A stretch of 19,925 bases of DNA from Fulvivirga aurantia (GTDB taxonomy: Bacteria > Bacteroidota > Bacteroidia > Cytophagales > Cyclobacteriaceae). Location: NCBI RefSeq assembly GCF_009711475.1, contig NZ_SMMD01000926.1, positions 1-19,925 on the forward strand, written 5' to 3'. The position numbers were made by a program, and so were the translations under genes. Below, in pieces: positions 4,201 to 19,925 of the stretch. The notes under the pieces were generated by a model that was given only the letters and a program-made list of their open reading frames with translations, ran no database searches and had not been told where the DNA came from. Position 1 is the stretch's first letter, and the number at the start of each line of letters is the position of its first letter.

Positions 4201-4201
4201 A

Positions 4202-5191
4202 TCAATACTTTATTGCTGCACATGCGAACGCTAACCCTCCACCTGATCCTATCAGAAAAAGTAGATCGCCCCGTTTGATTTTGTTTTTCTGGATAGCATC
4301 ATCAAGCGCCATGGGTATACACGCAGACCCTGTATACCCATAATACTTCATTATTTTATGGGCCTTTTCTTTTGCTACTCCGAGCCGTTCCATCGTTTCA
4401 TCAATAGAATTAAAATTAAGTTGAGTAATGAGATACTGGTCTATATCATCGGGTCTGATATTCAAACGATCGCACATTTTCAGTGTCATTTCCGTCCACA
4501 TTTCAGGATTGATTTCTTTAGGAAATTTATGCACGAACTTAAGCTTATGATCATTTCGGCTTATTACATCCTCATTTACGGGTTCATGGGCTCCTCCACT
4601 GTAAATGCCCATCCAGCTGTTATACTCACCGCGTGTTTTTAGCTCAGAAGCAACAAACCCGGCATCGGTGTTTTCATCAGCAGATAATACCAGTGCTCCT
4701 GCCCCATCGGCAAAAAGTGTAGCCGTTTTTTTGTCTGTTTTATTCAAATGTTTGCTCATTGCGTAGGCTCCAACCACCAACACCTGGCTGTAACGGTCAT
4801 CGGCTATTATATATTTTGCAGCCACATCAAGGGCTGTAACAAATCCAGCACATGCGGTATTCAGGTCAAAGGTTCCCGCGTTTTCTGCTTTCAATCGATC
4901 TTGTAGAACGGCAGCTGTTGATGGAGAAATATATTCAGGTGTATCTGTCGCAACAATGATCAAATCAAGGTCGGTTGGTTTTAAGCCTCCTCTATCGAGT
5001 GCCTGCCTACTGGCGTGCTCACACAAATCAGCTACTGACTCGTCTTCGCTGCACCAGCGCCTTTCATGGATATTTACATTTTCGCGTAGCCACTGATCTA
5101 CATCTTCTTTTAATAGTTCAGTAAAATAGCTGTTTGGAATTACATTTTCAGGTGCATATGCACCCGTTGACTTTATTATTGCCTTTCGCAT
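4202..5191 (-). CDS. KAS III-like thiolase-fold enzyme with non-canonical active site
   Basis: A 329-residue thiolase-superfamily protein of the 3-oxoacyl-ACP synthase III (FabH-like) type. The nucleophile motif NTACAG places the acylatable cysteine at Cys114, and the C-terminal IGSGGGLAFA matches the FabH glycine loop. In classical FabH the cysteine works with His (HQAN) and Asn (GNTSA). The aligned positions here read ITQLN (Thr256 for His) and GYTGSA (Tyr286 for Asn). It therefore has the acyl-binding cysteine but lacks the usual decarboxylation pair. It may be an acyltransferase, a condensing enzyme with a different mechanism, or need a partner. It sits between fabG and the symporter and is cytoplasmic. 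I do not give it the fabH symbol because of these changes. Confidence 0.88.
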   Translation of the reverse strand: MRKAIIKSTGAYAPENVIPNSYFTELLKEDVDQWLRENVNIHERRWCSEDESVADLCEHASRQALDRGGLKPTDLDLIIVATDTPEYISPSTAAVLQDRLKAENAGTFDLNTACAGFVTALDVAAKYIIADDRYSQVLVVGAYAMSKHLNKTDKKTATLFADGAGALVLSADENTDAGFVASELKTRGEYNSWMGIYSGGAHEPVNEDVISRNDHKLKFVHKFPKEINPEMWTEMTLKMCDRLNIRPDDIDQYLITQLNFNSIDETMERLGVAKEKAHKIMKYYGYTGSACIPMALDDAIQKNKIKRGDLLFLIGSGGGLAFACAAIKY

Positions 5192-5210
5192 GCGATGTTT
5201 TTCAAGTTAT

Positions 5211-5951
5211 TTAAATAGAAACTGCTCCGTCTACACTCAATACTGTGCCGCTAATGAAATTTGCTTCCGCTGATGCTAAAAAGGCATAAGCATTGGCAAT
5301 ATCTTCAGGTTTACCCAGACGCGCAAGTGGTGTTTTATCGACCATCATATTAATGACTTTTTCAGGAATGGTCTTGATCATGTCTGTGGCTATAAATCCG
5401 GGAGCCACGGCATTAACAGTAATATTATACCTACCCAACTCCTTGGCCAGGGTTTTGGTAAGACCAATCAAGCCAGATTTGGTAGCCGCGTAGTTGGCCT
5501 GGCCAAAATTTCCGTATAAACCCACTACCGATGAAGTGTTGATGATACTCCCTGATTGTTGCGCGATCATAGTAGGAGCAACTGCCTGTGTACAGTTGAA
5601 AACACCCGTTAAGTTTACGTCAATTACTTGCTGCCATTCAGCTAGTGACATTTTCTTTACGGTAGCATCACGGGTAATTCCAGCATTATTTATGAGAACA
5701 TCTATTTTTTGATTGCGTCCTAATTGCTCATTGAGAGCACTTTGAACCGAGTCCGGGTTTGTAGTGTCAACTTTTGAAAAATAAACTTCTCCTTTGCCCG
5801 CCAGGGTATCCAAAGCTTTCTTACCATCTTCTTCGCTTATGTCCCAAATGGTAACAGAGGCACCTTCTTGCAAAAACTTATGTACAGCTGAGAAGCCTAT
5901 GCCTCGGGCTCCACCAGTTATAATTACGACTTTGTCTTTGAGTCTCTTCAT
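5211..5951 (-). CDS. fabG: 3-oxoacyl-ACP reductase, FabG-type SDR
   Basis: A 246-residue classical short-chain dehydrogenase/reductase. The Rossmann glycine motif TGGARGIG is at 12-19, NNAG at 88-91 and the catalytic Asn at Asn113. Ser141, Tyr154 and Lys158 (YAATK) complete the active-site tetrad, and the PGFIATDM loop follows. Closest in pattern to NADPH-dependent 3-oxoacyl-ACP reductases of fatty-acid synthesis, although PhaB-like acetoacetyl-CoA reductases share these motifs. It is the first gene of the minus-strand operon, with 19 bases before the KAS III-like gene. Because the genome must have a housekeeping fabG, this copy may be dedicated to this operon's pathway; the symbol is therefore a family label rather than proof of role. 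Confidence 0.88.
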   Translation of the reverse strand: MKRLKDKVVIITGGARGIGFSAVHKFLQEGASVTIWDISEEDGKKALDTLAGKGEVYFSKVDTTNPDSVQSALNEQLGRNQKIDVLINNAGITRDATVKKMSLAEWQQVIDVNLTGVFNCTQAVAPTMIAQQSGSIINTSSVVGLYGNFGQANYAATKSGLIGLTKTLAKELGRYNITVNAVAPGFIATDMIKTIPEKVINMMVDKTPLARLGKPEDIANAYAFLASAEANFISGTVLSVDGAVSI

Positions 5952-6259: not shown

Positions 6260-6685
6260 ATGAGCGATAAGAAATTGATTGGAGACCTTTTGCGTGCGCA
6301 TGGTTTGAAGAAAACACCGATAAGATTGGAGATGCTGGAGCTGTTTATGGACCATGATTTTGCCCTTTCGGCCAGTGATATTGTTGCTAAAATGACTGCC
6401 GGACACGACCGTGTAACGATCTACAGAGCTTTGAGCTCTTTTGAGGAAAATGGCATATTACATCGCGCTTCAGAAGACGGACAAGGTGTGAAATACGCCT
6501 TGTGCGGGCAACACTGCCCCGATGAATCTCATAGCGATGAGCATGCCCACTTTGTGTGTGATGAGTGTCATCATACTTATTGTTTGGAAGATGTAAAAAT
6601 ACCCGAGGTAAAAGTATCAAACGAATTTATGGTAGACCGCGCCAACTATACACTCAGCGGCATCTGCAAAGAATGTAAATCATGA
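6260..6685 (+). CDS. Fur-superfamily metal-dependent repressor, Zur-like
   Basis: A 141-residue Fur-superfamily regulator. An N-terminal winged helix includes RVTIYRALSSFEENGIL (about 51-67), followed by a metal-binding dimerisation domain. The structural zinc pairs are Cys100-xx-Cys103 and Cys136-xx-Cys139. A Cys/His/acid-rich segment between them and the wing holds Cys82, His85, Cys86, His91, His95 and His97. The YALC at 79-82 aligns with the YVLC of E. coli Zur, which favours zinc sensing over iron or peroxide, but the subtype is not proven. The start is supported by AGAGG just before ATG. It is followed after 9 bases by the methyltransferase gene. A candidate target in this window is the 7-1-7 palindrome at 18301-18315. 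Confidence 0.9.
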   Translation: MSDKKLIGDLLRAHGLKKTPIRLEMLELFMDHDFALSASDIVAKMTAGHDRVTIYRALSSFEENGILHRASEDGQGVKYALCGQHCPDESHSDEHAHFVCDECHHTYCLEDVKIPEVKVSNEFMVDRANYTLSGICKECKS

Positions 6686-6694
6686 TTTTAACCT

Positions 6695-7303
6695 ATGCCT
6701 GAATCCTGGAAAAAGCATTACGAGCATTTCACCGACAAACTTATTCCACCTTCTGCAACGCTATCAAAGGCGCTTGAATTGTTTTCGCAAGAAAAGATCA
6801 ACATCAGGCATGCCATAGATTTGGGATGTGGCAATGGTATAGACACGCACGCACTTCTTCAAAATAATTGGCAGGTATTAGCTATTGATAAAGAAGAAGA
6901 GGCATTGAATCAATTAGACACTTTAGTTGCCCAAAACCATCGCCATGCATTAGCTAAGAGGTGTAGCGCTTTTGAGGAACTCACCTCACTACCATCAACC
7001 ACGCTCGTAAATGCTTCTTTTAGTCTCCCTTTTTGTCACCCTAACTATTTTGATAAAGTCTGGCAGGTAATTGTAAATAGTATCCAACCCAATGGAAGGT
7101 TTTCCGGGCATTTTTTTGGTAACGATGACTCATGGTCTTCAAATACCGACATGACATTTCACAATATGCAGGAAATAGAAGCGCTACTGTCTGATTTCAA
7201 CATCGAAGCACTTAAAGAGGTAAACAAGAAAGGAAAAACCGTTTCCGGAAAAGTAAAACACTGGCATGTTTTTCATATAGTGGCCAGAAAGAATACTATT
7301 TAG
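6695..7303 (+). CDS. Class I SAM-dependent methyltransferase
   Basis: A 202-residue Rossmann-fold methyltransferase. Motif I IDLGCGNGID is at 41-50, and Asp65 in VLAIDKEEEA is the likely ribose-binding acid at the end of beta-2. Motif IV is around SFSLPFCHP (108-116), where the usual acidic residue is not obvious. The overall pattern resembles small TehB-like or UbiE-like methyltransferases; the acceptor is unknown. It is cytoplasmic and follows the Fur-family gene by 9 bases on the same strand, so the two are probably co-transcribed. Its stop codon overlaps the stop of the convergent MATE gene by 4 bases, leaving no room for a separate terminator. Confidence 0.88.
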   Translation: MPESWKKHYEHFTDKLIPPSATLSKALELFSQEKINIRHAIDLGCGNGIDTHALLQNNWQVLAIDKEEEALNQLDTLVAQNHRHALAKRCSAFEELTSLPSTTLVNASFSLPFCHPNYFDKVWQVIVNSIQPNGRFSGHFFGNDDSWSSNTDMTFHNMQEIEALLSDFNIEALKEVNKKGKTVSGKVKHWHVFHIVARKNTI

Positions 7304-8655
7304 GTACAGTTTAGAGAAGTTTTTGATTGTAGCTTTTGCATTTCTATTTCCAACACAAATAATAATATTGAGGCATATAGAATATTTTCTATCACTAAGC
7401 TATAGTAAATGCCCTCGAGGCCCAGGAAATAAGGTAGGGCAAAAATGAGGGGTAAAAACAAGACCGCCTGCCTCGCCAATGGTATCATAGTAGCCTTTCT
7501 ACTATTACCCACTGCCTGAAAATAGATAATCGCTGAAGTCGAAATAGGCAAAAAGGGTAAGGCCAGAAAAACAAGTCTGATATAGTGTAGTTCGATTCCC
7601 CGTAAGGGTTCTTCCGGTATCATCAAGCCTATAAACCAATCAGGAAAAATTAAAAAGGGAATTAAAATCGAGGCCATAAAAATAACGCCTCCCCAGCGAA
7701 AGTACTTTAATACACTCACACACCTTTGCCAATTGCCAGCTCCGTAATTGATGCCAATAACCGGCTGAAGTGGTTGTAACAACCCCATGGCTGGTATTGA
7801 GATAAAGGAGAACAGTCTGTATGCTGCGCTAAATACCGCCAGATCGTGCGTAGTGCCATAGTAAGTGATAGAGCGAAAAATAATAAACTGCCTGACCACA
7901 TTTGATATTTGCATGGTGAGTGAGGAAAATCCGATGCTTACCACGTCTGAGGCAATCTCTTTCTCTACTCTTATGGCAAATTTACCTGTTTTAAATGAGG
8001 CATTACCTCTAATAAAATACGCTGAAGTAAGCAGACTATACACCACCATACTGGCTACGCTACTCCAGGCTGCTCCTTTCACACCTAGATTCAAGGTTTG
8101 AATAAACAGGGGTGTTAAGATGATATTTGCAACTACCGCAACCACGGTATAAGTCATCGCCTGCTTTATTTTACCTTCTGAACGAATAAGGCCATTTGCC
8201 GCCAGACCATAAACACTAAAAAAGGCCCCACACAAATAGATCTGTAAATAATCTACCCCTGATTGGTACACCTGGCCTTCTGCACCCAACAAGCTGACTA
8301 TGTCTTTAGAAAAAAGTATGCCGACTATAATGAGTATACCCGACCCTATGAGTGACAGTGCAATTAGGTTGGGAATTATCAATTGCTGAATAGATTGGTC
8401 TTTGGCACCTATGGCCCTGCTCAACACCGATGACGACCCCACAGCTATAAACCCGGTAATACTGGTGACCACCAAAGTCATAGGAAACAGTAGTGATACA
8501 CCTGCAAAGGCTTCCGTGCTTACAAGATTTCCCAGATAAAGTGCATCTACTAATGAGCTGATAGACAGTACCATCATGCCCAAAATACCCGGTAGAGAAA
8601 GTCTTTTCATGAGTAGCCATGGGCTATCATTATGCAGGTCTGGCCCTTTACTCAT
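7300..8655 (-). CDS. MATE-family efflux transporter
   Basis: A 451-residue inner-membrane protein with about 12 transmembrane helices in two repeated halves. SISSLVDALYLGNL in the first helix region has the conserved acidic residue (Asp37) typical of MATE exporters, and SSVLSRAIGAKD marks the loop after TM2. The family exports cationic drugs, metabolites or, in methanobactin loci, a metal-binding peptide, in exchange for sodium or protons. It is the last gene of the TonB-receptor operon, starting one base after the DUF5916 gene ends, so its job is probably tied to the compound handled by that operon. The substrate cannot be read from sequence. Confidence 0.92.
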   Translation of the reverse strand: MSKGPDLHNDSPWLLMKRLSLPGILGMMVLSISSLVDALYLGNLVSTEAFAGVSLLFPMTLVVTSITGFIAVGSSSVLSRAIGAKDQSIQQLIIPNLIALSLIGSGILIIVGILFSKDIVSLLGAEGQVYQSGVDYLQIYLCGAFFSVYGLAANGLIRSEGKIKQAMTYTVVAVVANIILTPLFIQTLNLGVKGAAWSSVASMVVYSLLTSAYFIRGNASFKTGKFAIRVEKEIASDVVSIGFSSLTMQISNVVRQFIIFRSITYYGTTHDLAVFSAAYRLFSFISIPAMGLLQPLQPVIGINYGAGNWQRCVSVLKYFRWGGVIFMASILIPFLIFPDWFIGLMIPEEPLRGIELHYIRLVFLALPFLPISTSAIIYFQAVGNSRKATMIPLARQAVLFLPLIFALPYFLGLEGIYYSLVIENILYASILLFVLEIEMQKLQSKTSLNCT

Positions 8656-8656
8656 T

Positions 8657-10861
8657 TTAGAATTGCTTTAGAAATGTAATCTTTCCTATGAGTTGCTGCT
8701 CCTCAAAAGGCGACTCGAGTCCATCGATACGATTGTCATTAAACACTAGATAGATAAAAGATAATGGACGATACTCCCAACTTCCACGTACATTCCAGCG
8801 GCCCTGCTTATCGAAGGAATTGTACTGGTAAAAGGCAGAGAGCTGTATCCGTGGATTTAGCGCAAATCGTGCTCCCAAAGTGGTCAGGTGTGTTTCCAGG
8901 TCTTCGAGTGACTCACCCAGCGACTTTAAATTATTATACTCATAATCTGCTGTAAACGCCATGTGCGGAATGGGCGCATAACGCATACCTCCATTTACTG
9001 TGAGCCTGTCTCCATTATAAAAACCTCCCCAGCTTAGTTTGCCTGACAGCGAAAACTTTCTTGATTGGTCAGTATTATACGACACCTGATGTCGCGTATA
9101 GTAATAGTTATCCTGAGTAATAGCGATTCCTAATGGAGCAAAGTTGAAGTTTATATTTTGCCAGGTAGGGTAAATGGCATATTCGAAAAAACTACCATCG
9201 GTAAAAATCAGGTAAATAGGAAACAAGTAAATACTACCCTGCTGAAAGTTGCCCGGATCATCGGCATCGTGGTAATAGTTGAAAAATGCTCCCGGATCAA
9301 ACCGTCTGATCCATGGTATATTTTCCGGCCTGAAGATATAATAGCCTCCCGGATTGTGCCAGATCACATTTTTCTGAAAGACAAAGCCCATGTCAGGATT
9401 ATAGTCTTTGGTCACAAAATTTGTAAGCCACCCAAGGTAAAACTTGTTGGTGTTGTATCCGGCAAATATCTTTCCTGCCAGACCCAGTGTGTCATTAGAA
9501 TTGTCTCGCGATCCGGAGAGCAGGTATGAGAAAGTAAGCTCACTTTTAGGGCGAATTAATCCATCAACTGTCAATGTGGTATTGTTGCTTTGGCTGGTAC
9601 CGAGCTCACTCGAAGCTTCGTCTAACCGATGGGTCACCATAAGACCCACATTGTTTTCTTTGCCATAATTTTGAAGGTAACGGGCCACACCAAAGCTGGC
9701 AGCTGGTGTGTTACCTGTAGCAGCCTGGTGTATATACAAACCTGCCACAGAGCGATTATCATTACGCATGGTATAACGTGCTCCGGCATCTATCCTGGCC
9801 GGCTCAGCATTAAAATTGCCTTGCAATCCGATGGTACGGCTAAAGAACGGCTTTACAGAAAAGTCACTCGCTCCTGCCCAAATCCCGGAGTTTTCCAGAA
9901 AAAACTGTCTCCGCTCAGGAAAGAAAATATTAAACCTTTCGAGGTTATTTACAGCACGATCTACGTCTGCCTGGGCAAAATCTGTATTAAAAGTAAGGTC
10001 TAAAACTGAGCGTGGATTGATGGCCCATTTTATATCACCACCTAATTTCACATCTCCCTCCGACTGACTTTCGCCTCCGGCTTCCACGTCATCATATTGA
10101 TATAGAAAATACGGTTCTACACGAATGTTGGCGCTGGGCTCTGGCACTGTCAGACCTTTAAGTTTGGCAGCATAAGTCATTCTGTATGGCGAAAATGACT
10201 GCGGGATAGCAGGAAATACGGTTTGTTCGTAATCCCTCCTTGCCAGTCTGTTAAAGGTTATCCCCCACGTAACGGAATCAGTATCCTGGGGGCGCTCATA
10301 ACGGATGGATTTAAATGGGATGGCAAATTCAGCAAAATAGCCCGAGTCAGTCTGGTGGGTTCTCACGGTCCATAAGGCGTTCCAGTTTGTATCGGTATTG
10401 TTGTCATTAAAATTCTGCAGGTCTCGCTGGTTGCCATAAGGTGTGGTTTGAAATGACACACAATATTGCTTGAGATTCTGAGGGTCTAATTGAATACCAA
10501 AAATATCATTTTCGCCCCATCTGAAGTCTCTGCGCAAATCCTGCACTCTTATGCCTTTTTTACCCAGAGAATCTTCGCAAAAAATACCGACATAGAGATT
10601 TTTCTCATCAAACATGAGCTTGGCCAGCGTTTGATAGTGGTATTCTCCTCCCTGCCTTGGTTCAATTCGGAAGAAATCCTTCGTTACCGGGGCTTTGTCC
10701 CAGGCGGCTTCTGTAAGCTTTCCATCTATTTTAATGTCTTCGTCAGCTCTCACCGCGTTGATCTCTAGCGGAGTTTCCGGTGGTGGAAAATTGTCAGTCT
10801 GCTGTGCCTGAAGCAAACCAAAGGTGCCAACCCATGCAAAAAGTAATGTGATAGATTTCAT
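8657..10861 (-). CDS. DUF5916 outer-membrane protein with CBM9-like domain
   Basis: A 734-residue protein. A signal peptide covers residues 1-20 (MKSITLLFAW start, ending LLQAQ). Residues about 34-195 match the carbohydrate-binding family 9-like fold (IKIDGKLTEAAWDKAP and a later FAEFAIPFKSIRYE), and the DUF5916 hallmark FFPERRQFFLEN follows. The rest is rich in alternating aromatic beta-strands and ends in a Phe, as expected for an outer-membrane barrel. The ATG at 10861 is chosen over a longer start at 10945. It begins the signal peptide and overlaps the upstream permease stop as ATGA, while the 28-codon extension would hide the signal and overlap the permease gene. Function of DUF5916 is unknown; here it may form the outer-membrane path of an ABC system. 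Confidence 0.88.
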   Translation of the reverse strand: MKSITLLFAWVGTFGLLQAQQTDNFPPPETPLEINAVRADEDIKIDGKLTEAAWDKAPVTKDFFRIEPRQGGEYHYQTLAKLMFDEKNLYVGIFCEDSLGKKGIRVQDLRRDFRWGENDIFGIQLDPQNLKQYCVSFQTTPYGNQRDLQNFNDNNTDTNWNALWTVRTHQTDSGYFAEFAIPFKSIRYERPQDTDSVTWGITFNRLARRDYEQTVFPAIPQSFSPYRMTYAAKLKGLTVPEPSANIRVEPYFLYQYDDVEAGGESQSEGDVKLGGDIKWAINPRSVLDLTFNTDFAQADVDRAVNNLERFNIFFPERRQFFLENSGIWAGASDFSVKPFFSRTIGLQGNFNAEPARIDAGARYTMRNDNRSVAGLYIHQAATGNTPAASFGVARYLQNYGKENNVGLMVTHRLDEASSELGTSQSNNTTLTVDGLIRPKSELTFSYLLSGSRDNSNDTLGLAGKIFAGYNTNKFYLGWLTNFVTKDYNPDMGFVFQKNVIWHNPGGYYIFRPENIPWIRRFDPGAFFNYYHDADDPGNFQQGSIYLFPIYLIFTDGSFFEYAIYPTWQNINFNFAPLGIAITQDNYYYTRHQVSYNTDQSRKFSLSGKLSWGGFYNGDRLTVNGGMRYAPIPHMAFTADYEYNNLKSLGESLEDLETHLTTLGARFALNPRIQLSAFYQYNSFDKQGRWNVRGSWEYRPLSFIYLVFNDNRIDGLESPFEEQQLIGKITFLKQF

Positions 10862-12297
10862 TGCTTTATACCTCCTTTCATTTTTATAAAGCCTAAAGTG
10901 AACACCAGAACTGCCGCTAGAAGGACTTTGCCCAACCCCAGCCATACCGTCTCCCAGCGGTCTGATTGCTGCTTCATAGAGAAGCTCGGCAAATTTTCAT
11001 AATCTGCTCTGACAAGTGGTTTGTCCCAAAAAAGGCGATTGAAATAGAATTCACTTATGTTTCCGTGGAAACGTACCAGCGCATCTTGATAATGAAGAAA
11101 TGTTGTTAGGTCAGTCTCAACAATGTGTGTAAAAACATCCTGCATATTAACTGAGGGGCTCAACCAATGGAAGCGGGATGTCCATGTGTTTCTTTTGGCC
11201 ACCTGGGCGTTGTAGTGGTCTACTTCATGCTGATTATTAATGTCTTTTAAAGAAGTGAAAGCAGCATAGGCTTTTGCTAGCATGTTATTTTCTATCAAAC
11301 TATCGCTTGCTGCCAGCTCAGGTTTGTGAGCTAAAAACTCTCTGATCACTTTCTTAACTTCCTTCTCATCATTTTCATTTTCCAGGCCCGTTCTTCGGGT
11401 AAGGCCGGCAAGTGTCGCACTATTGAGCGGATACATGGTAGTGACAATCACATTGAGCATCGATGGAATCACGATTAAGAGGAATAGCCAACAACCCGCT
11501 GCGGAAATAGCATTGAAAGATGAGCTTTTGCGAAAGCTTATGACGAAGTACAACAAACCAAACCAAAAAGCACAATAAACCACCACGCCAACTAACCAGG
11601 CCAGACCAGGCATCAGGTTCTCATCGGCTACAAAACTGCCTGAAGAAAGAATACCGACAAGTGATAGTAATAGAGCAAGACCTGTGATCAGCACAAAGTA
11701 AAAAGTGAGTCTTACTAAAGTAATCTTGCGCATACTTACTGACTGAATCAGCAGCAAAGCGAGTGTGCCCCCTTCTTTATCAGACGAATACAGACCATAG
11801 CAAAAGGCTATAATCACAAGCGGAAACAGGTAAATAAGTACAAAAGACAAATCGAAATTTCCCGCCATCAGGTTAACGGGGTTGGCGAGCTCATTTTCGA
11901 ACAACTGGTAATGCAAGCTCATACCTGTAAGGCGATAGTAATAGCGAAAAAGGTCTCTCTGACCAATCGCTAATGGCGCAAAATCGTGAGGAGGAAGTAT
12001 CGCATGGTAGCCATGCCTAAACCAGGCGTAAGCCGGTCGAGAAGCAATGTCATGCGTTTGCTCCTGCTCAATCGTTTCCATTTCCTCAGTGAAGCTGGCC
12101 TTATAGGTAGAAAACTCTTCATGCTCAATAGCAGTGACCGCATTTATAGTATTTCGCTGTGCGTTTATCTCAGACTGACCATAGTATATCGCATACAGGC
12201 CGAATAAAAACGTTACCACCAGCATTATCAGCTGAAACTTATTGCGTACAAATGCTTTCCATTCATAGCGAACCAATGTCTTTATTGTGCTATCCAT
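10858..12297 (-). CDS. ABC-2 type permease, DUF3526 family (second subunit)
   Basis: A 479-residue inner-membrane protein. It has an N-terminal amphipathic stretch and TM1 (about 22-40), a large extracytoplasmic loop (about 41-148), then TM helices around 150-170, 194-218, 230-253 and 262-285. A second long loop and a final helix (about 452-471) follow. After TM2 the motif SDKEGGTLALLLIQ (171-184) matches the equivalent site in the neighbouring permease and probably contacts the ATPase. The first loop holds His95, His98 and His104. It is paralogous to the upstream permease, overlaps it by 8 bases, and should form a heterodimer with it. Export or import direction and substrate are unknown; DUF3526 permeases are poorly characterised. 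Confidence 0.87.
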   Translation of the reverse strand: MDSTIKTLVRYEWKAFVRNKFQLIMLVVTFLFGLYAIYYGQSEINAQRNTINAVTAIEHEEFSTYKASFTEEMETIEQEQTHDIASRPAYAWFRHGYHAILPPHDFAPLAIGQRDLFRYYYRLTGMSLHYQLFENELANPVNLMAGNFDLSFVLIYLFPLVIIAFCYGLYSSDKEGGTLALLLIQSVSMRKITLVRLTFYFVLITGLALLLSLVGILSSGSFVADENLMPGLAWLVGVVVYCAFWFGLLYFVISFRKSSSFNAISAAGCWLFLLIVIPSMLNVIVTTMYPLNSATLAGLTRRTGLENENDEKEVKKVIREFLAHKPELAASDSLIENNMLAKAYAAFTSLKDINNQHEVDHYNAQVAKRNTWTSRFHWLSPSVNMQDVFTHIVETDLTTFLHYQDALVRFHGNISEFYFNRLFWDKPLVRADYENLPSFSMKQQSDRWETVWLGLGKVLLAAVLVFTLGFIKMKGGIKQ

Positions 12298-13726
12298 GAA
12301 GCGGTCTCATTTTTCGGTTAGTATAATGTATGAGCAAAACCATCATGGCCGTCCACAGACCAATAGAAATCAATTCCAACTTATAATGGCTTAGTAATTC
12401 TTTAACTGTAGGCGTCTGGTAAGAAAAATCATCTATTTGTTTCCAGAGATCTTCACCAGCCTTATAGCCAAAAAACTCCCCATACTTAGAGTTTTCAGCC
12501 ATGTCATTGTTCATTTTGCGTACCAGTGCTCTTCTATACGCTTCCACCTCATCTTCAAAGTGAATGAAAGTATGAATGTCAGTACCGGATAGCCCCATAG
12601 ACAGGTGCTGTACCGCCAGAAAAGGATTGAACAGACTTGCGATACTGCTCAATCGGTTTTGTTTATGGAAAATATTCTGGAGTTTTTCTAAATGATGGTC
12701 GTAAACCATATTGCCGTACTCCTCACCTGCCTGCATGCTCACGCCTTCGAAGTTAAAGGGTAGCTGCTCTACAGAATCTACCTGATATTTTTCCAGGTAT
12801 TCGTTGGTCAAGTTTACCATTCGCACAGATCGGGGTGTTTTGCCATCCAGGCCGTTGGCCTTGTCTTTGTCTATGGCCGCCTTAAACTCCCGCATAGAAG
12901 GAAGTGTGTAAATGCTCTCGCTGAAGTTGGCCACCGTTTTAGGCATGAGTATTACCAACAATATCCAGCAGGAAAGCAGTGTCAACAGTGCATTTCTACC
13001 AGTAGACGAGCGCAGCGATATCCATACTGAAAAGGAGATAAAGAAAAATAAATAGAGGCCATAAACGCCATACAGCAAAATCACCCTGGCTTCAACTTGC
13101 TGAAGAGCCTCATGCTGCACGCCCGTAAATGAAAGTATAGCTATCCCGATCATAAAAGGTGATAGGATGACTATGAGAATAATACTATAGGCTAAAATCT
13201 TACCCCATGTGAGCGTTTGAAAAGAAACACCCTGACTTAGCAATAATTTTAAGGTCCCTCGCTCACGCTCGTGGGTGTAAGAAGCAAAAGAGAGAAAAAT
13301 AATAAGCAGTGGAACCAGTACCTGTAACACCAAAGCCGCACTTAGCTCGCCAAACCTGATCATACTGCTATGATCCTGCGCGGGCCTAAACATAAATTCA
13401 TGTTGATAATGCGCCTCAAGGTACACTGACGTGCCGGTGTAGGCATCAAGACCAAAGTCGAAGAGACTCAACACTGTTTTTGGCTTGAATACAAATGTGC
13501 CATAATGAGCCGCTATATGTGGGTGCTTGTCGCCCTGGCCCAGCCACTCCTGACGTTTCTCATTTTGGGTTTGAGAAATTATGGCTTCTTGCTGCTGATA
13601 GGTGAGGTACCCTGCATACAAAGCTACCCCAAGCAAAATCACAATAATACTACCCAGCGCTAGCACCAATCTTTCTCTTAGTGCTATCAAAATCTCCTTT
13701 TTTATGATTAAGAAAAGTAGTTGCAT
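12290..13726 (-). CDS. ABC-2 type permease, DUF3526 family (first subunit)
   Basis: A 478-residue inner-membrane protein laid out like its neighbour: TM1 around 20-40, an extracytoplasmic loop, TM helices around 130-150, 175-200, 215-235 and 245-262, a long second loop, and a final helix around 452-467. The first loop has the DUF3526-like HPHIAAHYGTFVF (68-80) and a later EAHYQHEF (104-111), a cluster of five histidines that could bind metal. The cytoplasmic motif THERERGTLKLLLSQG (151-166) is typical of this permease group. Its ATG overlaps the ATPase stop by one base (TAATG), indicating coupled translation. With the ATPase and the second permease it should make a complete ABC transporter. 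Confidence 0.88.
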   Translation of the reverse strand: MQLLFLIIKKEILIALRERLVLALGSIIVILLGVALYAGYLTYQQQEAIISQTQNEKRQEWLGQGDKHPHIAAHYGTFVFKPKTVLSLFDFGLDAYTGTSVYLEAHYQHEFMFRPAQDHSSMIRFGELSAALVLQVLVPLLIIFLSFASYTHERERGTLKLLLSQGVSFQTLTWGKILAYSIILIVILSPFMIGIAILSFTGVQHEALQQVEARVILLYGVYGLYLFFFISFSVWISLRSSTGRNALLTLLSCWILLVILMPKTVANFSESIYTLPSMREFKAAIDKDKANGLDGKTPRSVRMVNLTNEYLEKYQVDSVEQLPFNFEGVSMQAGEEYGNMVYDHHLEKLQNIFHKQNRLSSIASLFNPFLAVQHLSMGLSGTDIHTFIHFEDEVEAYRRALVRKMNNDMAENSKYGEFFGYKAGEDLWKQIDDFSYQTPTVKELLSHYKLELISIGLWTAMMVLLIHYTNRKMRPLHG

Positions 13727-14427
13727 TAGTTATGCATGTGTTTGAGATACAGCTTTTCCAGGTCTTGAAAACTCACATCATCAGAAGCAAACTGCTCAAT
13801 GAGCACACCTTCTTTCATGATGCCGATATGCGTGCCTGTGTCTTTGGCGCGAAAAAGATCATGGGTAGCCATAAGTGTGGCTACACCATTATCTTTCATA
13901 CTCAACAACAGCTCTGAAAATTCATTGCTGGCTTTTGGGTCAAGCCCAGAGGTAGGCTCGTCTAATAGTAAAACCTTGGCTTCTCGTGCTCTTGCCAGCG
14001 CTATGCCTACTTTCTGCCTCATCCCTTTTGAGTAGCTTTTTACTCTTTTATTGATAAAATCTGGCTGTAGGCCTGATTGCTTAAGCAGCTCTTCTAACTG
14101 CTCTCTGGCATAGCTTCGACCTCTCAAACCACAGAAAAAATCCAGATTCTCCAGGCCAGTAAGGTTTGGGTACAGCATCAGGTTTTCTGGTATGTAAGAA
14201 AGCAATTGTTTAGTCTCCCTTGCATACTGATCGACATCCAATGAGTTGATACTCGCCTTTCCTTCTGTAGCTTCTATGAAGTTGAGAAATAGGTTGATGG
14301 TAGTCGACTTTCCTGCTCCATTGGCTCCCAGCAAACAAAAGATGTCTCCTTCGTTTACTGATAGGTTGAGGTCATGAAGAGCCGTAAAGCTTCCGTATTT
14401 TTTTGTGAGATTGGTGGCTTTTAGCAT
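13726..14427 (-). CDS. ABC transporter ATP-binding protein
   Basis: A 233-residue nucleotide-binding subunit. Walker A is GANGAGKST at 34-42, the Q-loop region reads YIPENLMLYP (78-87, with Asn or Glu in place of the usual Gln), the signature is SYSKGMRQKV at 131-140, and Walker B is VLLLDEP at 152-158. The D-loop GLDP and H-loop His189 are present. It is closest in style to ABC-2/NosF/GldA-type ATPases that pair with ABC-2 permeases. It powers the two permeases encoded directly downstream (1-base overlap). It follows the lipoprotein gene by 6 bases, so all belong to one transcript. Confidence 0.92.
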   Translation of the reverse strand: MLKATNLTKKYGSFTALHDLNLSVNEGDIFCLLGANGAGKSTTINLFLNFIEATEGKASINSLDVDQYARETKQLLSYIPENLMLYPNLTGLENLDFFCGLRGRSYAREQLEELLKQSGLQPDFINKRVKSYSKGMRQKVGIALARAREAKVLLLDEPTSGLDPKASNEFSELLLSMKDNGVATLMATHDLFRAKDTGTHIGIMKEGVLIEQFASDDVSFQDLEKLYLKHMHN

Positions 14428-14433
14428 AATGAA

Positions 14434-15900
14434 TTAATTTACCTGTACCAGTCCGCTCACGTAACCGCTGCTACTGGTAATCTTTTTAGATACTTCTCCT
14501 GAGCCTATCGCATAGCTGTAGATGGCATCTTCGTCTTTGCCAGCTATAGGGAAGAGAATTTCATCATCTGAAGATTGGAAAAAGAACATCGTGCGAGATG
14601 CAGCAAATGTATTTGGCAATGATGCAGCCAGATCTCCTCCATCAGTCTTAGCAGCTAAGTCGATTTGGTGGTAACGGAATGCCGGATTGTCTCCATCAAA
14701 TCCGAACCAATTATCGTCATTTGATGAAACTGCTGTAAAAGTGAGGCCATCACCAAAGTGATATAGTCCAAAACATGAGCCTCCTACCGTAGCAGTCAAG
14801 TCAAAGAAATAGCCAGTGTCAAACTCTGTTTCTCCCGCTTTGATTCTTAGTATACCACTAGGTTTATCACTAAAAAGACCAGATCCCTGCACGTAAATGT
14901 CACCGTTATCAGCCTCGGTCATTATAGCTGTGGTTAAAGAACCAAAAAGTGTTGATGTTCTGGTATCGGTAATCACCTTTTCCAGCGTGTTGGTCTGTAA
15001 GTCTACCACAGCCACCATCGCTTCACCTGAGCCTCCAAAGTCATTAAGTGCGATGAATAAGGTGTTGCCTCTTACAATCATGTCAGAATAAAAAAGGCCC
15101 TCACCTGCACTGGAAAGGTCTATTTCTCCGGTAATACGCATTTCTGAAGGGCTAAATTGTACCGCTCTTGAGAGGCCGCCTCCCACGGTAGCATACCCTT
15201 TATTCTCGTCAATAATTTCTACAGAAGAAAAGGAGCTTGAACCAGGAACTATGATCTCCTGATCTAGTTTAGCTTCACCAGCGCTATTGAAGACGTATTT
15301 ACCCATGGTAGCCGGTGCACCGAAACCTGCAGTAAACAAAGCATTGCCATCTGAATAGACCGCGGCAAACTGCGCTAATTCTGTGCTACTACTATTATCA
15401 ATTGTGTTTAGGTCAAGATCAATCAGACCTTGTAAGAAAGTAGTAGTTACATCTCCAGCACCTGAAACCAGGGCCATCCCGTAGTTTACCGGAGCAAACA
15501 CTTCAACCTCAACCGCCTGGTTAGTACTCTTTCCTTGCTGATCAGTAACTGTGAGTGTTACCGTCTGAGTGCCACTTATATCGGCCGCTGTTTCATAACT
15601 CACCGTTGCTTCTGCATTGGTGGTACCTACAATGTCATCTGTATTGATGATAGTGGCTGTACCGGCACTGGCTGCCACTGTTACCTCAGAAACGGTACCA
15701 GGCGCAATTACTGTAAACGTTACTTCCAGGGTTTCTCCGCCACGTACAGATGAGCCCTCAGCCGCTTGAATCACTGGCGCATCAGGGTCGATTCCGGGGT
15801 CATCATCAATACATGATACCATAGCTGAAACGGCAAAAACAAGAGTAAGAGAGATGCTTATATATTTCATAAGCCTTAAATAGTAAATTGGTTGTTTCAT
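14434..15900 (-). CDS. Surface lipoprotein, Ig-like domain plus beta-propeller-like repeats
   Basis: A 488-residue predicted lipoprotein. The lipobox SAMVSC puts the lipidated cysteine at Cys30, and the following IDDD resembles the acidic surface-export signal of Bacteroidota lipoproteins, so it is probably on the cell surface. An Ig/PKD-like beta-sandwich spans about 38-135, followed by repeated beta-strand segments resembling a propeller (about 140-488). The layout recalls the DUF4374/XusB-type lipoproteins that capture siderophores for a partner TonB receptor; this is a resemblance, not a firm match. A second ATG at 15870 would give a more typical 20-residue signal peptide and may be the true start. 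It lies 18 bases after the receptor gene. Confidence 0.8.
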   Translation of the reverse strand: MKQPIYYLRLMKYISISLTLVFAVSAMVSCIDDDPGIDPDAPVIQAAEGSSVRGGETLEVTFTVIAPGTVSEVTVAASAGTATIINTDDIVGTTNAEATVSYETAADISGTQTVTLTVTDQQGKSTNQAVEVEVFAPVNYGMALVSGAGDVTTTFLQGLIDLDLNTIDNSSSTELAQFAAVYSDGNALFTAGFGAPATMGKYVFNSAGEAKLDQEIIVPGSSSFSSVEIIDENKGYATVGGGLSRAVQFSPSEMRITGEIDLSSAGEGLFYSDMIVRGNTLFIALNDFGGSGEAMVAVVDLQTNTLEKVITDTRTSTLFGSLTTAIMTEADNGDIYVQGSGLFSDKPSGILRIKAGETEFDTGYFFDLTATVGGSCFGLYHFGDGLTFTAVSSNDDNWFGFDGDNPAFRYHQIDLAAKTDGGDLAASLPNTFAASRTMFFFQSSDDEILFPIAGKDEDAIYSYAIGSGEVSKKITSSSGYVSGLVQVN

Positions 15901-15918
15901 AGTTGTTTAATTAAAGTT

Positions 15919-18288
15919 TCAAGGTTTTGTAAGGAAAAGTCTAAGTTTTACATGCCACGAGCGACCCGGTTTTTGCACACGGAAATTGTCGTAGGCATTG
16001 GCATCCAATATATTTTGTGATTCTAAAGAAAGTGTGGCCCTTTCATTCCAGCCTGTATAAGCTATGCCTGCATTATGCAACCATTGATCAGGAACTGTCA
16101 GCTTATCTTCTTTTCTTCCGTCAATTTCCCAATAGCGAAAAAACTCTTTGACATAAGCCACAGACCACCAGACCTGAAACTGGTCTCCACGTTTCAATAC
16201 ATTTGATTTACTGAACTGCAGCTCGCCATTGCCAAATAGATGTGGTCGGTTGGGCAGTCTGGCACCATAATATCTATCACTGCTCACACCTGAGTTAATT
16301 TTGTTTGAGCGATTGCGCAAGTCCTGATAGGTTGCGTTAGCACGTACCGTGAGCCAGTGCCATGGTTTGTATTGCACCTCACTTTCAATACCGGTGATGC
16401 TTGCTTCGAGTAAATTTTCATACTTACTAAGCACAGGTGGTGGTACTGCCTGCAAGATGATAATATCGCTTACTCTTCTTAAGAAACTATTGACCTCTAT
16501 GCTCCAGACTTTTCTTTTGTAGAGCCCACCGAGATTTACATTATGACTCGTTTCTGGAACCAAACCCGGGTTGGCATTTATAGCTGCGCTAAAATCACCC
16601 AGCGTTTCTATCCTGTCTGGCATACGGGTGGCGTACTCATAAGACGCTTTTGTAAGTAAATATTTATTGGCCTTCCATTTAAATGACTGACTAAAACCCG
16701 GCTGGAATTGGTCCTGTTTTATAGTTGTCGATTCACTGTTTTCAATGATAAATCCTTCAGAATTGAATTGGTAGGCTTTTACGGCTGTGTGGCTGACTAT
16801 TTTACCCGCTAAAAACTCTTTTTCTAAACCTACACCGGCTACTAGTTTATCTACATATACCGGATTTTGAAAATAGTCTTCTCCATAAAATTCTGCGGCT
16901 ACCGGATCGCTACCCACTCGTGTGAAGTGAGATGCCACACCATTGAAGATAAGGCTCGTTGTGGGTGTAATTTTGTAATTGACATTTAAGCGCCCTACTA
17001 GATTTTCCCCATCTAAGTTCAGGTTATTCTGAGATGTGGTAATTTCTCCTCCGTATGTTTTTTGGCCAATGATCTCTCCTCGCCAATCATAAATATTGCG
17101 GGTTGTGTCTATGAAGCTGGTTGCTATACGGTTATAGCCTAAATAGAAATTTAGGTCCAGTTTGTCTGCAATGTCGTATTTCTCATATTGCAGTGAGGTA
17201 TTATAGGTTGTCGCCAGATTAAGGGCTTGACCGTATGGCTGGCGCATCTCAAAATTGTGTTGTATCTCATCGTACAAGTCACCGTGTGAGAAACTCACTA
17301 ATAATTGATCTGCCCAGGGTTTATTAACAACACCTGCCTCACCCTTTACCATATAGCTTCTAAAGCGGTCATGAAATTTAGGTGTAGATATAGATTCCGG
17401 ATTCCCAAATTCGTTGATGGTTTTTACATCGTCCAACATGTAGTTATTGTCTGAAGCCATATAAAAGGCACTTAGGCCAACGGTAAATCCTGAATCAAAA
17501 AACTTGCGTGTGCTCAAGGTAGACCGCCAGGTATTAAAAGAGCTATGCTCTGTTGATATTTCCAGGTAATCCTGAAAATCTTTACGCGTAATAATGTTTA
17601 TGGCTCCACCTAGTGCGTCTGCACCCAATGCTACCGGTACAGCGCCTTTATAGACCTCCATTCTTTCCATCAAATTGACGGGAAACATGGACAGAGAAGC
17701 ACCGATACCCAACTCTTCTACCGGCAAGAGAAAATCCATAGGAATACCATCGACAAACAACTTTACCTGTCTGCCCGAGAGGCCCTGTATAGATATTTCT
17801 GTGCTGTTACCCACGCCTCCACTCTGTCGCACCTGTACACCAGAGAGGGTATTGAGTAAATCTGGTGCATTTATGGAGCGATTATAAAACGGTTTGGCTT
17901 CAACGAGAGAGACCGATGCAATACCTTCTTTGATGGCCATCGACTCAGATTGCCCGGTCACGGTTACCTCATTTAGTTGCGTGACCGACTCGTCTAGACT
18001 AAGGTTTACTACCAGACTTTGACCTGAGTTTATACTCACTGATTTTTTCAAAGGTTGGTAGCCAATGAAGGAAGCAGTGATGACGAAGTCACCTTTCGTT
18101 AACTTATTGAAAGCATACCGCCCTTTTTCATCAGCCACAGTTGCCAGGTCGCTGTTTAATTGCACATAAGCTCCGGGAATTACGCCTCCATCAGTTGTCG
18201 ATACCCTTCCTGATATAGACGCATTTTGGCCATAGGTGTAAGCCGATGACACTAAAATGATAGCAAAGAAAAGAGAGAGACGTTTCAT
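15919..18288 (-). CDS. TonB-dependent outer-membrane receptor
   Basis: A 789-residue receptor. A signal peptide (1-21) is followed by a CarboxypepD_reg-like domain (about 24-100, SISGRVSTTDGGVIPGAYV). The plug domain follows (about 115-235: APDLLNTLSGVQVRQSGG, later MERMEVYKGAVPVALGADAL and GGAINIITRK) and a 22-strand-type barrel fills the rest. It imports a scarce large or metal-bound ligand across the outer membrane using TonB energy. It is not SusC-like in length (SusC proteins are about 1000 residues) and has no SusD partner; instead a lipoprotein follows. It is the first gene of the operon and has a good promoter at 18314-18343 overlapped by a 7-1-7 palindrome, so it is probably repressed by a Fur-family regulator. 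Confidence 0.93.
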   Translation of the reverse strand: MKRLSLFFAIILVSSAYTYGQNASISGRVSTTDGGVIPGAYVQLNSDLATVADEKGRYAFNKLTKGDFVITASFIGYQPLKKSVSINSGQSLVVNLSLDESVTQLNEVTVTGQSESMAIKEGIASVSLVEAKPFYNRSINAPDLLNTLSGVQVRQSGGVGNSTEISIQGLSGRQVKLFVDGIPMDFLLPVEELGIGASLSMFPVNLMERMEVYKGAVPVALGADALGGAINIITRKDFQDYLEISTEHSSFNTWRSTLSTRKFFDSGFTVGLSAFYMASDNNYMLDDVKTINEFGNPESISTPKFHDRFRSYMVKGEAGVVNKPWADQLLVSFSHGDLYDEIQHNFEMRQPYGQALNLATTYNTSLQYEKYDIADKLDLNFYLGYNRIATSFIDTTRNIYDWRGEIIGQKTYGGEITTSQNNLNLDGENLVGRLNVNYKITPTTSLIFNGVASHFTRVGSDPVAAEFYGEDYFQNPVYVDKLVAGVGLEKEFLAGKIVSHTAVKAYQFNSEGFIIENSESTTIKQDQFQPGFSQSFKWKANKYLLTKASYEYATRMPDRIETLGDFSAAINANPGLVPETSHNVNLGGLYKRKVWSIEVNSFLRRVSDIIILQAVPPPVLSKYENLLEASITGIESEVQYKPWHWLTVRANATYQDLRNRSNKINSGVSSDRYYGARLPNRPHLFGNGELQFSKSNVLKRGDQFQVWWSVAYVKEFFRYWEIDGRKEDKLTVPDQWLHNAGIAYTGWNERATLSLESQNILDANAYDNFRVQKPGRSWHVKLRLFLTKP

Positions 18289-18300
18289 AAATAATACAGG

Positions 18301-18315
18301 TGCAACATTGTTGCA
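18301..18315. promoter_or_regulatory. Perfect 7-1-7 inverted repeat, Fur/Zur-type operator
   Basis: TGCAACA-T-TGTTGCA is a perfect 15-bp inverted repeat with one central base, which is the architecture of Fur, Zur and PerR boxes. It overlaps the last bases of the -7 element and the expected transcription start of the TonB-receptor operon, so a bound repressor would block transcription. The Fur-family gene at 6260 is the obvious candidate regulator, but this is not shown. Confidence 0.65.
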
Positions 18316-18343
18316 AATATAGTATTATGTTTCAAACGCAAAA
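18314..18343 (-). promoter_or_regulatory. Bacteroidota-type promoter of the TonB-receptor operon
   Basis: Read on the minus strand, TTTTG (18343-18339) is followed after 17 bases by TATATTTG (18321-18314). These match the Bacteroidota -33 TTTG and -7 TAnnTTTG elements. The receptor ATG follows about 26 bases downstream of the -7 element, giving a short leader of roughly 20 bases. Confidence 0.7.
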
Positions 18344-18417
18344 GATTTGCATTTATAATTTTAAGATAAAATAGATTTTCGGATGTGCCGATGGATAAGT
18401 GGCTTACCTGTCAGCTA

Positions 18418-19341
18418 CTAAAAGTCTATAGAATGAATTAAACCTTCACTGGACAACTCCTCAAAAGCTTCGAGTTCTTCTTCGGACAATTTGCTTTTAG
18501 GTAGTAGACCATCTGACTTGCTCCAGAGTGATTGAGCCCCAGGTGTGAGTTTGTAGGCCTCCTCTTTGTCTTTTTTTAATAAGTAAGTATTGCCGTCATT
18601 TTTATTTAGCTCCAGCACTCTTTGGTTTCTCAAAAGATAGGCTGATGCACTTTGTTGTAACGGTAATACCTCTCGTTCTTCATTATAAAGCAAAAAATTT
18701 AAAGGAGAGTTGAGACTTATTGCTTTTTCTTCATTCTCACCAAGCTCAAATACTTCAATATGAGTTTTCATCTTTCCCGCCCCAGTTGGTGTACAGCTTA
18801 CAATCTTGACAGGTGTTTTTTCCGGTGAGTGATTTACTACAATGGCCTTACTATCTTCACCAGACTTTTCTTCATCTTTTACGGATACTTTCTCAACAAA
18901 GAAAAAATCATCTTTGGCCGTTTTTGAGTGTCTGATCTCTCCTCCACTATGCACCTCAGAAATCAATGTATACTTACCCAGTGGCGCATCCTCAGGCACC
19001 TGATAGCTAAAGTAATAATGCCGCCCAGACTGTATATTTTGTAAGATTTCGATCAGCTTTTCTCGTTGGTGCTGGCCACTTAGGTATTCCGCTATAACCA
19101 GCAAAGGCAAGTTTTTATTCAGGTACTTTAATGATGGTTTAGCGTTTGGCTGCGGTTGCTCATCAGACTCTGGTAATCCTAATACATGATCTTCAAACAG
19201 CATGGTGATTTTACCATCTGGTGCTTTTACTCCAATTCTCACATAAGGAAAAACATGCACGTCTGTGAGGTGAGCTGTATTAAAATTCCAGTGGATGGTA
19301 ACCACACTATTACGTACAGTCCTTTTAGGAAATATGCTCAT
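18418..19341 (-). CDS. Beta-sandwich protein with PqqD/RRE-like C-terminus
   Basis: A 307-residue, hydrophilic protein without signal peptide. Residues about 10-152 look like one or two beta-sandwich units (VTIHWNFNTAHLTDVHV; later GKYTLISEVHSGGEI and DDFFFVEKV). A further beta-rich part covers about 165-230. The last 55 residues (YLLKKDKEEAYKLTPGAQ, LWSKSDG, then an alpha-helix ending EELSSEGLI) follow the pattern of PqqD-like RiPP recognition elements: a beta pair, a Trp/DG turn and helices ending in GLI. That would bind a leader peptide. It overlaps the upstream small gene as ATGA and ends 129 bases before the TonB receptor start. No enzyme motif is visible, so an accessory or scaffold role is likelier than catalysis. 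Confidence 0.82.
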   Translation of the reverse strand: MSIFPKRTVRNSVVTIHWNFNTAHLTDVHVFPYVRIGVKAPDGKITMLFEDHVLGLPESDEQPQPNAKPSLKYLNKNLPLLVIAEYLSGQHQREKLIEILQNIQSGRHYYFSYQVPEDAPLGKYTLISEVHSGGEIRHSKTAKDDFFFVEKVSVKDEEKSGEDSKAIVVNHSPEKTPVKIVSCTPTGAGKMKTHIEVFELGENEEKAISLNSPLNFLLYNEEREVLPLQQSASAYLLRNQRVLELNKNDGNTYLLKKDKEEAYKLTPGAQSLWSKSDGLLPKSKLSEEELEAFEELSSEGLIHSIDF

Positions 19342-19823
19342 CGCCTAAGCGCCTTAATATTTTGTTTACTGTATTTTTCGGGATATTCCTGAAACCACTT
19401 CTTTACAGTTTCTTCTCCCAGGTGATCGTAAGTGACGGAGATTAAGGTTTGTAGCTTGTCCAGATAATCCTGTCTGGCTTTTTCATGGTCTGCCATGAGA
19501 GACTTTTCACGCTCCGCTTTTTCTTGCTTGCTGGCCGGTACGTGATGAAAGTATTTTTGAAAATGCTGCTGACTAAACTCATGATATTGTGGTGTAAACA
19601 AGATCATATTGTGCCACATCTCATCGATAATCAATAAGTCATCAGGAATAAACGTACCAGGAATCTGGCTTATGTATAGAAACTTCAATGTTTCTTTTAA
19701 AATGTCCCTTGCCTCATCTTCGCTGACATTATACATATCAGTGAATCTTGAGAGCATGTCTTCATTTTCAAACTGCAGTAGTTTTTGCAGTTGTTCTTTT
19801 TCTAAAGTCTCTGTCATAGTCAT
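19338..19823 (-). CDS. Small glycine-rich-domain-like (DUF1399-type) protein
   Basis: A 161-residue cytoplasmic, mostly helical protein. Residues 67-96 (IDEMWHNMILFTPQYHEF, then QKYFHHVP) match the conserved DxxWHxxxLxTxxYxxF…HH pattern of the glycine-rich-domain-containing/DUF1399 family, whose molecular function is poorly known. The conserved Trp70, His71, His93 and His94 could form a metal or ligand site. The ATG at 19823 is preferred; a GTG at 19922 in the same frame would add 33 residues that overlap the Cys-rich tail reading frame and a hairpin. Another ATG is two codons downstream. The stop is ATGA-coupled to the PqqD-like gene, suggesting joint function. Confidence 0.78.
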   Translation of the reverse strand: MTMTETLEKEQLQKLLQFENEDMLSRFTDMYNVSEDEARDILKETLKFLYISQIPGTFIPDDLLIIDEMWHNMILFTPQYHEFSQQHFQKYFHHVPASKQEKAEREKSLMADHEKARQDYLDKLQTLISVTYDHLGEETVKKWFQEYPEKYSKQNIKALRR

Positions 19824-19834
19824 ATTAAGCAAAG

Positions 19835-19866
19835 AAGCGGCAGCATGACTACTCACGCTACCGCTT
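19835..19866 (-). terminator. RNA hairpin between putative precursor gene and downstream genes
   Basis: On the minus strand the transcript would form a 10-bp stem (AAGCGGTAGC-type arm at 19866-19857 pairing with 19844-19835, one G-U pair) around a 12-base loop. The sequence after it is CTTTGCTT, U-rich but not a strong U-tract. It starts about 10 bases after the stop of the upstream Cys-rich reading frame. A leaky terminator or processing stem there would let the first gene be expressed more than the following ones, as is common in peptide precursor operons. Confidence 0.45.
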
Positions 19867-19875
19867 AAGAATGGT

Positions 19876-19925
19876 TTATAATGTACTGCTACAGTGTCCG
19901 CAGTTGCTACAATGTGTACCACCTA
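19876..19925 (-). CDS. 3' end of a possible RiPP precursor (GG + Cys/His/Ser/Thr-rich tail)
   Basis: A minus-strand frame open to the window edge ends at TAA (19878-19876) with GGTHCSNCGHCSSTL as its last 15 residues. A double glycine followed by a short Cys/Ser/Thr-rich C-terminus is the layout of many Bacteroidota ribosomal peptide precursors (leader, GG cleavage site, core). The core would have three Cys, two His, three Ser and two Thr. An 18-bp-period imperfect DNA repeat encodes the HCSN/HCSS units. It is followed by a hairpin and by genes on the same strand including a PqqD/RRE-like protein. Only the tail is visible, so a protein ending in a CxxCxxC metal site is a real alternative, as is a chance open frame. 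Confidence 0.5.
   Translation of the reverse strand, partial: GGTHCSNCGHCSSTL

Follow-up and report, generated by a model that had tools for sequence, protein, structure and literature searches.

Methanobactins are RiPP copper metallophores, in which a short Cys-containing ribosomal precursor with a leader is combined with TonB uptake logic. The operon analysed here shares these traits and differs from the methanobactin systems in its zinc-type control and its core; neither MbnB/DUF692 nor MbnC maturases were present among the conserved genes typed in the window (the whole 19,925-nt stretch of Fulvivirga aurantia DNA that was analysed). Grasp-with-spasm systems (TIGR04192/TIGR04193) are related in another way. 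Two of their clusters, L141 and L142, contain a homologue of the 161-aa protein of our locus (A), and the leader of an ORF in L141 (KENLISEL) is similar to those found here, whereas the zinc-type operon has a different core, and typing of its conserved genes in the window revealed neither ATP-grasp nor SPASM maturases. Zincophores of the pseudopaline type and ZepA (PMC10957091, accessible part) offer a third parallel, with Zur control, the idea of an extracellular scavenger and a TonB receptor; their scavengers, however, are opine-type molecules or an exoprotein, whereas the candidate here would be a ribosomal peptide of 36 aa. No description of such an operon was found in the open-licence literature, a scope that leaves most subscription papers and preprints outside, and neither DUF1399 nor glycine-rich appears as a term in the accessible main text of two RiPP surveys (PMC8939145, PMC10352776).

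The window corresponds to all of contig C349, one of 947 in the draft genome, and thus has no DNA to its right. The operon (window 10858-19925) is bigger than originally described and comprises the precursor peptide gene, A, a 307-aa protein (B), a TonB receptor, a DUF4374-like protein, an ABC ATPase and two DUF3526 permeases, all encoded on the minus strand from the peptide frame to the second permease. As the preliminary description had stated, a reading frame at the right edge ends in GGTHCSNCGHCSSTL; we located this 3′ end of the precursor gene at 19923-19876, followed by a TAA stop, and its start is missing because the window spans the entire contig. The coupling described for the genes of A (19338-19823) and B (18418-19341) was likewise present, with an overlap of 4 bp. 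For the A gene, there is also a 194-aa ORF with a GTG start, which overlaps the peptide frame. The RiPP-like character proposed for the operon was upheld, although its TonB/ABC half and its zinc-type regulation had been missed. We give about an even chance to a zinc-starvation operon for a ribosomal, leader-guided Cys/His peptide that would act as a metal scavenger, with zinc the most likely metal.

Homologous loci came from a scan of genome contigs with A (17 loci) and from 28 further regions of relatives. The comparison set consisted of 21 loci with A at least 56% identical (L032-L049, L051, L053 and L055, of which L040 and L041 are almost identical), duplicate records of a genome being omitted, and the peptide diversity given here rests on the loci fetched. 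The peptide core was present in all 21 loci, and the genes of the peptide, A and B, whose co-occurrence was to be checked across Bacteroidota, stood together in 20 of them. The peptide-hairpin-A-B layout is not due to chance. In the next locus down (L056, A 53% identical) and in L088, both the peptide core and the 307-aa gene were lacking. The precursor start and leader for which a search had been recommended exist in relatives, and the contig of the window ends before them. In the relatives, the precursor ORF has an ATG of its own and a length of 33-36 aa (typically MQIKKEALISQILAEKSANPVGGTHCSNCGHCSSTL), which excludes the GG/Cys-His frame being the end of a long protein. It combines a conserved leader, KxxLIxxIL..K, with a separate, invariant core, G..HC...GHC, as expected of a short RiPP precursor gene. 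M1, K5, L13, G22, H25-C26 and G30-H31-C32 were invariant in 15 distinct peptides. The middle Cys of the core was replaced by Gly in L037 and L038, and GG was altered in L053 and L055, so GG is not strict. For the 15 distinct 36-codon genes, representing 17 of the 21 loci, dN/dS was computable in 76 of 105 pairs and had a median of 0.13. No signal peptide was evident by eye in the precursor. The assignment of the peptide as a leader-core precursor is well supported.

The interval between the peptide and A genes contains a stem-loop (19835-19866, minus strand). It had been announced as a 10-bp element; the stem-loop was indeed present, but its predicted fold has 14 bp. A stem followed the peptide stop in all 20 related loci that were folded, as well as in the window. 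The alignment of 17 of the 21 stems, from which the differing stem of L055 and three stems repeating that of L039 were omitted, gave a consensus of 12 pairs, 7 of them with compensatory changes. As the stems were excised from single-sequence folds, pairing is expected, and it is the compensatory changes that constitute the evidence. The hairpin may serve as an attenuator or mRNA stabiliser with a role in differential expression.

Protein A is an all-helical member of the PF27765 family with the signature DEMWH...Y...HHxP, and a candidate RiPP maturation partner. Its suggested likeness to DUF1399 found support in the fold but not in Pfam. The fold matched a viral GRDP-like protein (E 0.012, prob 1.00, TM 0.55/0.62), and at least five A homologues, among the matches listed, bear the NCBI name glycine-rich domain (DUF1399-like); the Pfam GRDP family was absent among 25 of the 27 families listed for 47 A members. 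The similarity to glycine-rich domain (DUF1399-like) proteins is one of fold, whereas A is devoid of a fused glycine-rich region. A had no PDB match at E 0.001 and has no known activity, and the curated families in local libraries matched neither A nor B. The HH pair of A reads DH in the A proteins of grasp-with-spasm clusters, which weakens the case for a metal site at this pair.

Protein B consists of beta-sandwich domains and a small C-terminal domain, and was present in 20 of the 21 loci (L048 is without it). At the C-terminus, for which a PqqD-type recognition element had been claimed, strands are followed by helices in the predicted order. The 23 families with a match to any of 40 B members did not include PqqD, and hhalign of B against 7 PqqD sequences scored 19.8 (P 10.6%), compared with 18.7 for the best of 30 column shuffles. 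A PqqD-like domain in B is thus weakly supported.

Homologues of A also occur outside the zinc-type operon. Within the GTDB genus and family of our genome, paralogues make up a second type of locus (type II). In all 16 such loci (L057-L068, L070-L073), A was preceded by an ORF of 41-50 aa that has Cys close to the end, and in 15 of them it was followed by a protein of 898-1111 aa that clusters with the sensor histidine kinase of L057, the only one of these kinases that was typed; at L058 the contig ends. Locus L069 had no kinase and contained a 61-aa ORF with a similar leader. A leader + Cys motif, composed after the peptides had been seen, was found on site in 15 of the 16 type II loci and in one off-site ORF among 308 small intergenic ORFs. 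The type II leaders have K..LI..L in common with the zinc-type leaders, and their cores vary and contain between one and three Cys. The pattern scanned for the regulatory box described below was not found at the type II A-peptide systems, which implies that A itself is not zinc-specific.

In another family, four A matches were found among 249 genomes, two of them inside the grasp-with-spasm clusters L141 and L142 (TIGR04192 at 336 and 342 bits, cut-off 230; TIGR04193 at 320 and 306 bits, cut-off 175). A C39 ABC and an HlyD protein were typed in L141, where the ORF leader reads KENLISELMQDTVKGG ahead of CC. In L140, the ORF ahead of A is Cys-rich, 78 aa long and equipped with a double-Gly leader; the ORFs of L141 and L140 matched no known family. 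At L143:3478-3835 (minus strand), two nearly identical tandem peptide ORFs ending in KRCLTMCELSSNGGKK precede A and a large 819-aa protein. There were also counter-examples: L056 has A with no recognised peptide or B, and L142 has no recognised precursor just upstream of A. Separately, we observed that lower-similarity A-like proteins (L074, L075, L132/L144) adjoin proteins ending in Cys-Ser repeats; in L074, L075 and L144, the A-like proteins of ~146-149 aa stand beside proteins of 349-401 aa with end repeats such as SSCSSCSSCSSCGGD.

The distribution of the system is patchy. In the phylum, the A profile matched 6 of 395 genomes at E 1e-10 (own genome included; three were partial matches in longer frames), 8 of 291 genomes of the order, again including our own, and 4 of 249 genomes of the one other family. 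A single-sequence search with A gave 28 of 98 genomes, weak distant matches included. B was found in 1 of 395 genomes of the class, i.e., our own. The A family is apparently an undescribed RiPP-associated family, and maturation of the peptide by A (with B) is plausible, given that A recurs beside such leaders.

It might be argued that the product is an unmodified small metal-binding peptide or metallochaperone, which A and B merely help to fold, target or load. The HC...GHC core could presumably bind zinc without modification, and no known RiPP enzyme appeared among the conserved genes typed. Nonetheless, the conserved leader and the hairpin that follows the precursor gene speak against this alternative, as do the members of the A family that reside in grasp-with-spasm clusters or accompany the type II peptides, whose cores are variable; we regard it as unlikely.

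The remainder of the operon runs from the TonB receptor to the second permease. The TonB-dependent receptor (15919-18288, minus strand) had MxcH, the myxochelin siderophore receptor, as its best NCBIfam model, at 498.7 bits vs a cut-off of 925, and was present in 20 of the 21 loci (L048 is without it). Further downstream, the counts use the 18 B-bearing loci with sufficient DNA, as L044 and L049 end early. The DUF4374-like gene (14434-15900, minus strand; 21.3 bits, under the cut-off of 25) was conserved in place in 18/18 loci. The ABC ATPase (13726-14427, minus strand), which is nearest to drug-export and lantibiotic-protection ATPases at scores below their cut-offs, occurred in 17/18, with L053 lacking it. 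Both ABC-2 permeases with DUF3526 (12290-13726 and 10858-12297, minus strand) occurred in 18/18, weakly in L032, L053 and L055 (27-41% identity). The gene order is kept as far as the second DUF3526 permease, and the genes upstream of the operon vary between genera. The ABC genes of the window contain no C39 peptidase domain. Among the conserved genes typed in the window (TonB, DUF4374-like, ABC, DUF3526), there was no maturation enzyme of a known RiPP class; the LanB/LanC, YcaO and radical SAM enzymes that the preliminary description had recommended looking for did not turn up, nor did an ATP-grasp. A canonical lanthipeptide, YcaO, sactipeptide or graspetide operon was ruled out on the same grounds.

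Several neighbouring or related gene arrangements deserve mention. After the second permease and on the same strand, the window contains a DUF5916/CBM9 gene and a MATE transporter (7300-10945, minus strand). Five further same-strand genes (271-5951, minus strand), named by reading the sequence only, are alpha/beta hydrolase-like, AMP-dependent ligase-like, sodium/solute symporter-like, ketoacyl synthase III-like and short-chain reductase-like. In L139 (genome G883), an A fragment (84-aa open frame) precedes a 467-aa ORF that looks like a DUF3526 permease, perhaps a decayed copy of the operon. At L117:1556-3015 (genome G030), a Zur-type box is followed by a His-rich ORF of 100 aa, an ABC ATPase and the beginning of a permease that resembles the DUF3526 type; a single-sequence search found no A homologue in this genome. 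The ABC cassette may have a zinc role of its own.

The transport genes could also be read as self-protection or product uptake for an antibacterial or signalling peptide of RiPP type tied to zinc shortage. The resemblance of the ABC ATPase to drug and lantibiotic-protection ATPases, albeit below cut-offs, and the pairing of type II peptides of the A family with sensor kinases would fit such a role. However, H25, C26, G30, H31 and C32 are invariant in the 15 distinct peptides, unlike in fast-changing toxins, and the TonB receptor is retained in nearly every locus. We consider this alternative to have a rather small chance of being correct. The most economical idea is that the product would scavenge zinc via the TonB receptor.

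A zinc-type regulatory signal accompanies the operon. The palindrome TGCAACANTGTTGCA was located upstream of the peptide in 19 of the 21 loci, with at most one mismatch; it was not found there in L037 and L049. The same palindrome recurs in the interval from B to the TonB gene in 6 of 20 loci and likewise in the window, where the Zur-box-type TGCAACATTGTTGCA is found 5′ of the TonB receptor gene (18301-18315, strand not assigned). The palindrome TGCAACANTGTTGCA matches the published ATGCAACNNNGTTGCAT, predicted in PMC545781 to be the Zur box in two Desulfovibrio species. The exact pattern was present in 28 of 58 genomes (own included) at 60 sites, 13 of which are held by G016 alone, while the reversed-pattern control gave 0 in all 58. 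Out of the 60 exact sites, 27 were read, one per genome: three were the peptide operon and four were near COG0523 and/or MerC relatives (L102, L107, L111, L119). Other sites were near TonB receptors or lipoproteins, as in L095, which adjoins a TonB gene and an ABC gene, and some had no clear zinc link. Examples of the latter are L093, L099, L101 and L105, where the box is near an FAD/NAD oxidoreductase-like gene of ~301 aa (GGSYAGLSAAMALGRSLR; named by reading), a candidate new member of the regulon.

Our own genome has six box sites with at most one mismatch, one at the operon and five on one other contig, which encodes a COG0523 GTPase, DUF1826, MerC, an FtsX-type ABC system and a TonB receptor. 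A figure legend in PMC2770081 lists DUF1826 among Zur-regulated COG0523 clusters. In G014, a single contig of 6.98 Mb, there were eight sites with at most one mismatch and none for the reversed pattern. Two are inside the peptide operon. A TonB gene with a lipoprotein accounts for two more, and the remaining four are at a MerC-COG0523/FtsX ABC group, a TonB-like gene, a ZIP zinc transporter (79.1 bits, cut-off 35.1) and a lipoprotein beside COG0523. The seven sites in G005 (control 0) comprise two at a C39 ABC transporter, two near FolE, and one each at a TonB receptor, an FtsX ABC system and a second ZIP (63.3 bits). G004 had three sites and G011 four, with one each from the reversed-pattern control. 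The C39-peptidase ABC transporter of G005 (L162:2179-4398) directly adjoins its two boxes and is possibly another zinc-linked peptide exporter; the best A homologue of that genome is only 45% identical.

A possible regulator of the box is the Fur-family gene of the window (6260-6685, plus strand). Three Fur-family genes were found in the genome, and this one alone has Zur as best NCBIfam match, at 38.6 bits against a cut-off of 167; it is barely separated from a paralogue that scores 37.9 bits with the same model. A Zur box upstream, as in Zur-regulated zinc acquisition, was found in silico, where zinc-type control of the peptide operon is well supported. Scavenging of another metal (copper, iron or nickel), with the palindrome belonging to a different Fur-family regulator, is improbable: the Cys/His core suits copper too and none of the three Fur-family genes exceeds a curated NCBIfam cut-off, yet the box matches the published Zur box (PMC545781, accessible part) and stands beside ZIP genes in two genomes, COG0523, MerC, DUF1826 and FolE.

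For the proposed zinc-scavenging peptide, the following sequence of events can be envisaged. Zinc shortage would cause a Zur-type repressor to leave the box, and the peptide would be made in excess over the downstream proteins owing to the hairpin. A, together with B in the zinc-type subtype, would bind the leader and modify or protect the Cys/His core, after which the leader would be cut near GG. The ABC-2 transporter would export the product, which would bind zinc outside the cell, and the MxcH-like TonB receptor and the DUF4374-like protein would take the loaded peptide back.

We also put forward, tentatively and as a possibility rather than a probability, a new RiPP class around PF27765 proteins. 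One of its lineages would be the first ribosomally encoded zinc scavenger, controlled by Zur, matured by A (and B), exported by the DUF3526 ABC system and re-imported through the MxcH-like TonB receptor, and the same family would serve the sensor-kinase-linked and grasp-with-spasm peptides. If this is true, bacteria would acquire zinc with a genetically encoded peptide, comparable to what methanotrophs do for copper, and the peptide core would be readable directly from DNA. It would also assign a role to PF27765 (GRDP-like), a family of unknown function, as a marker of the RiPP precursors that are overlooked when mining relies on known maturases.
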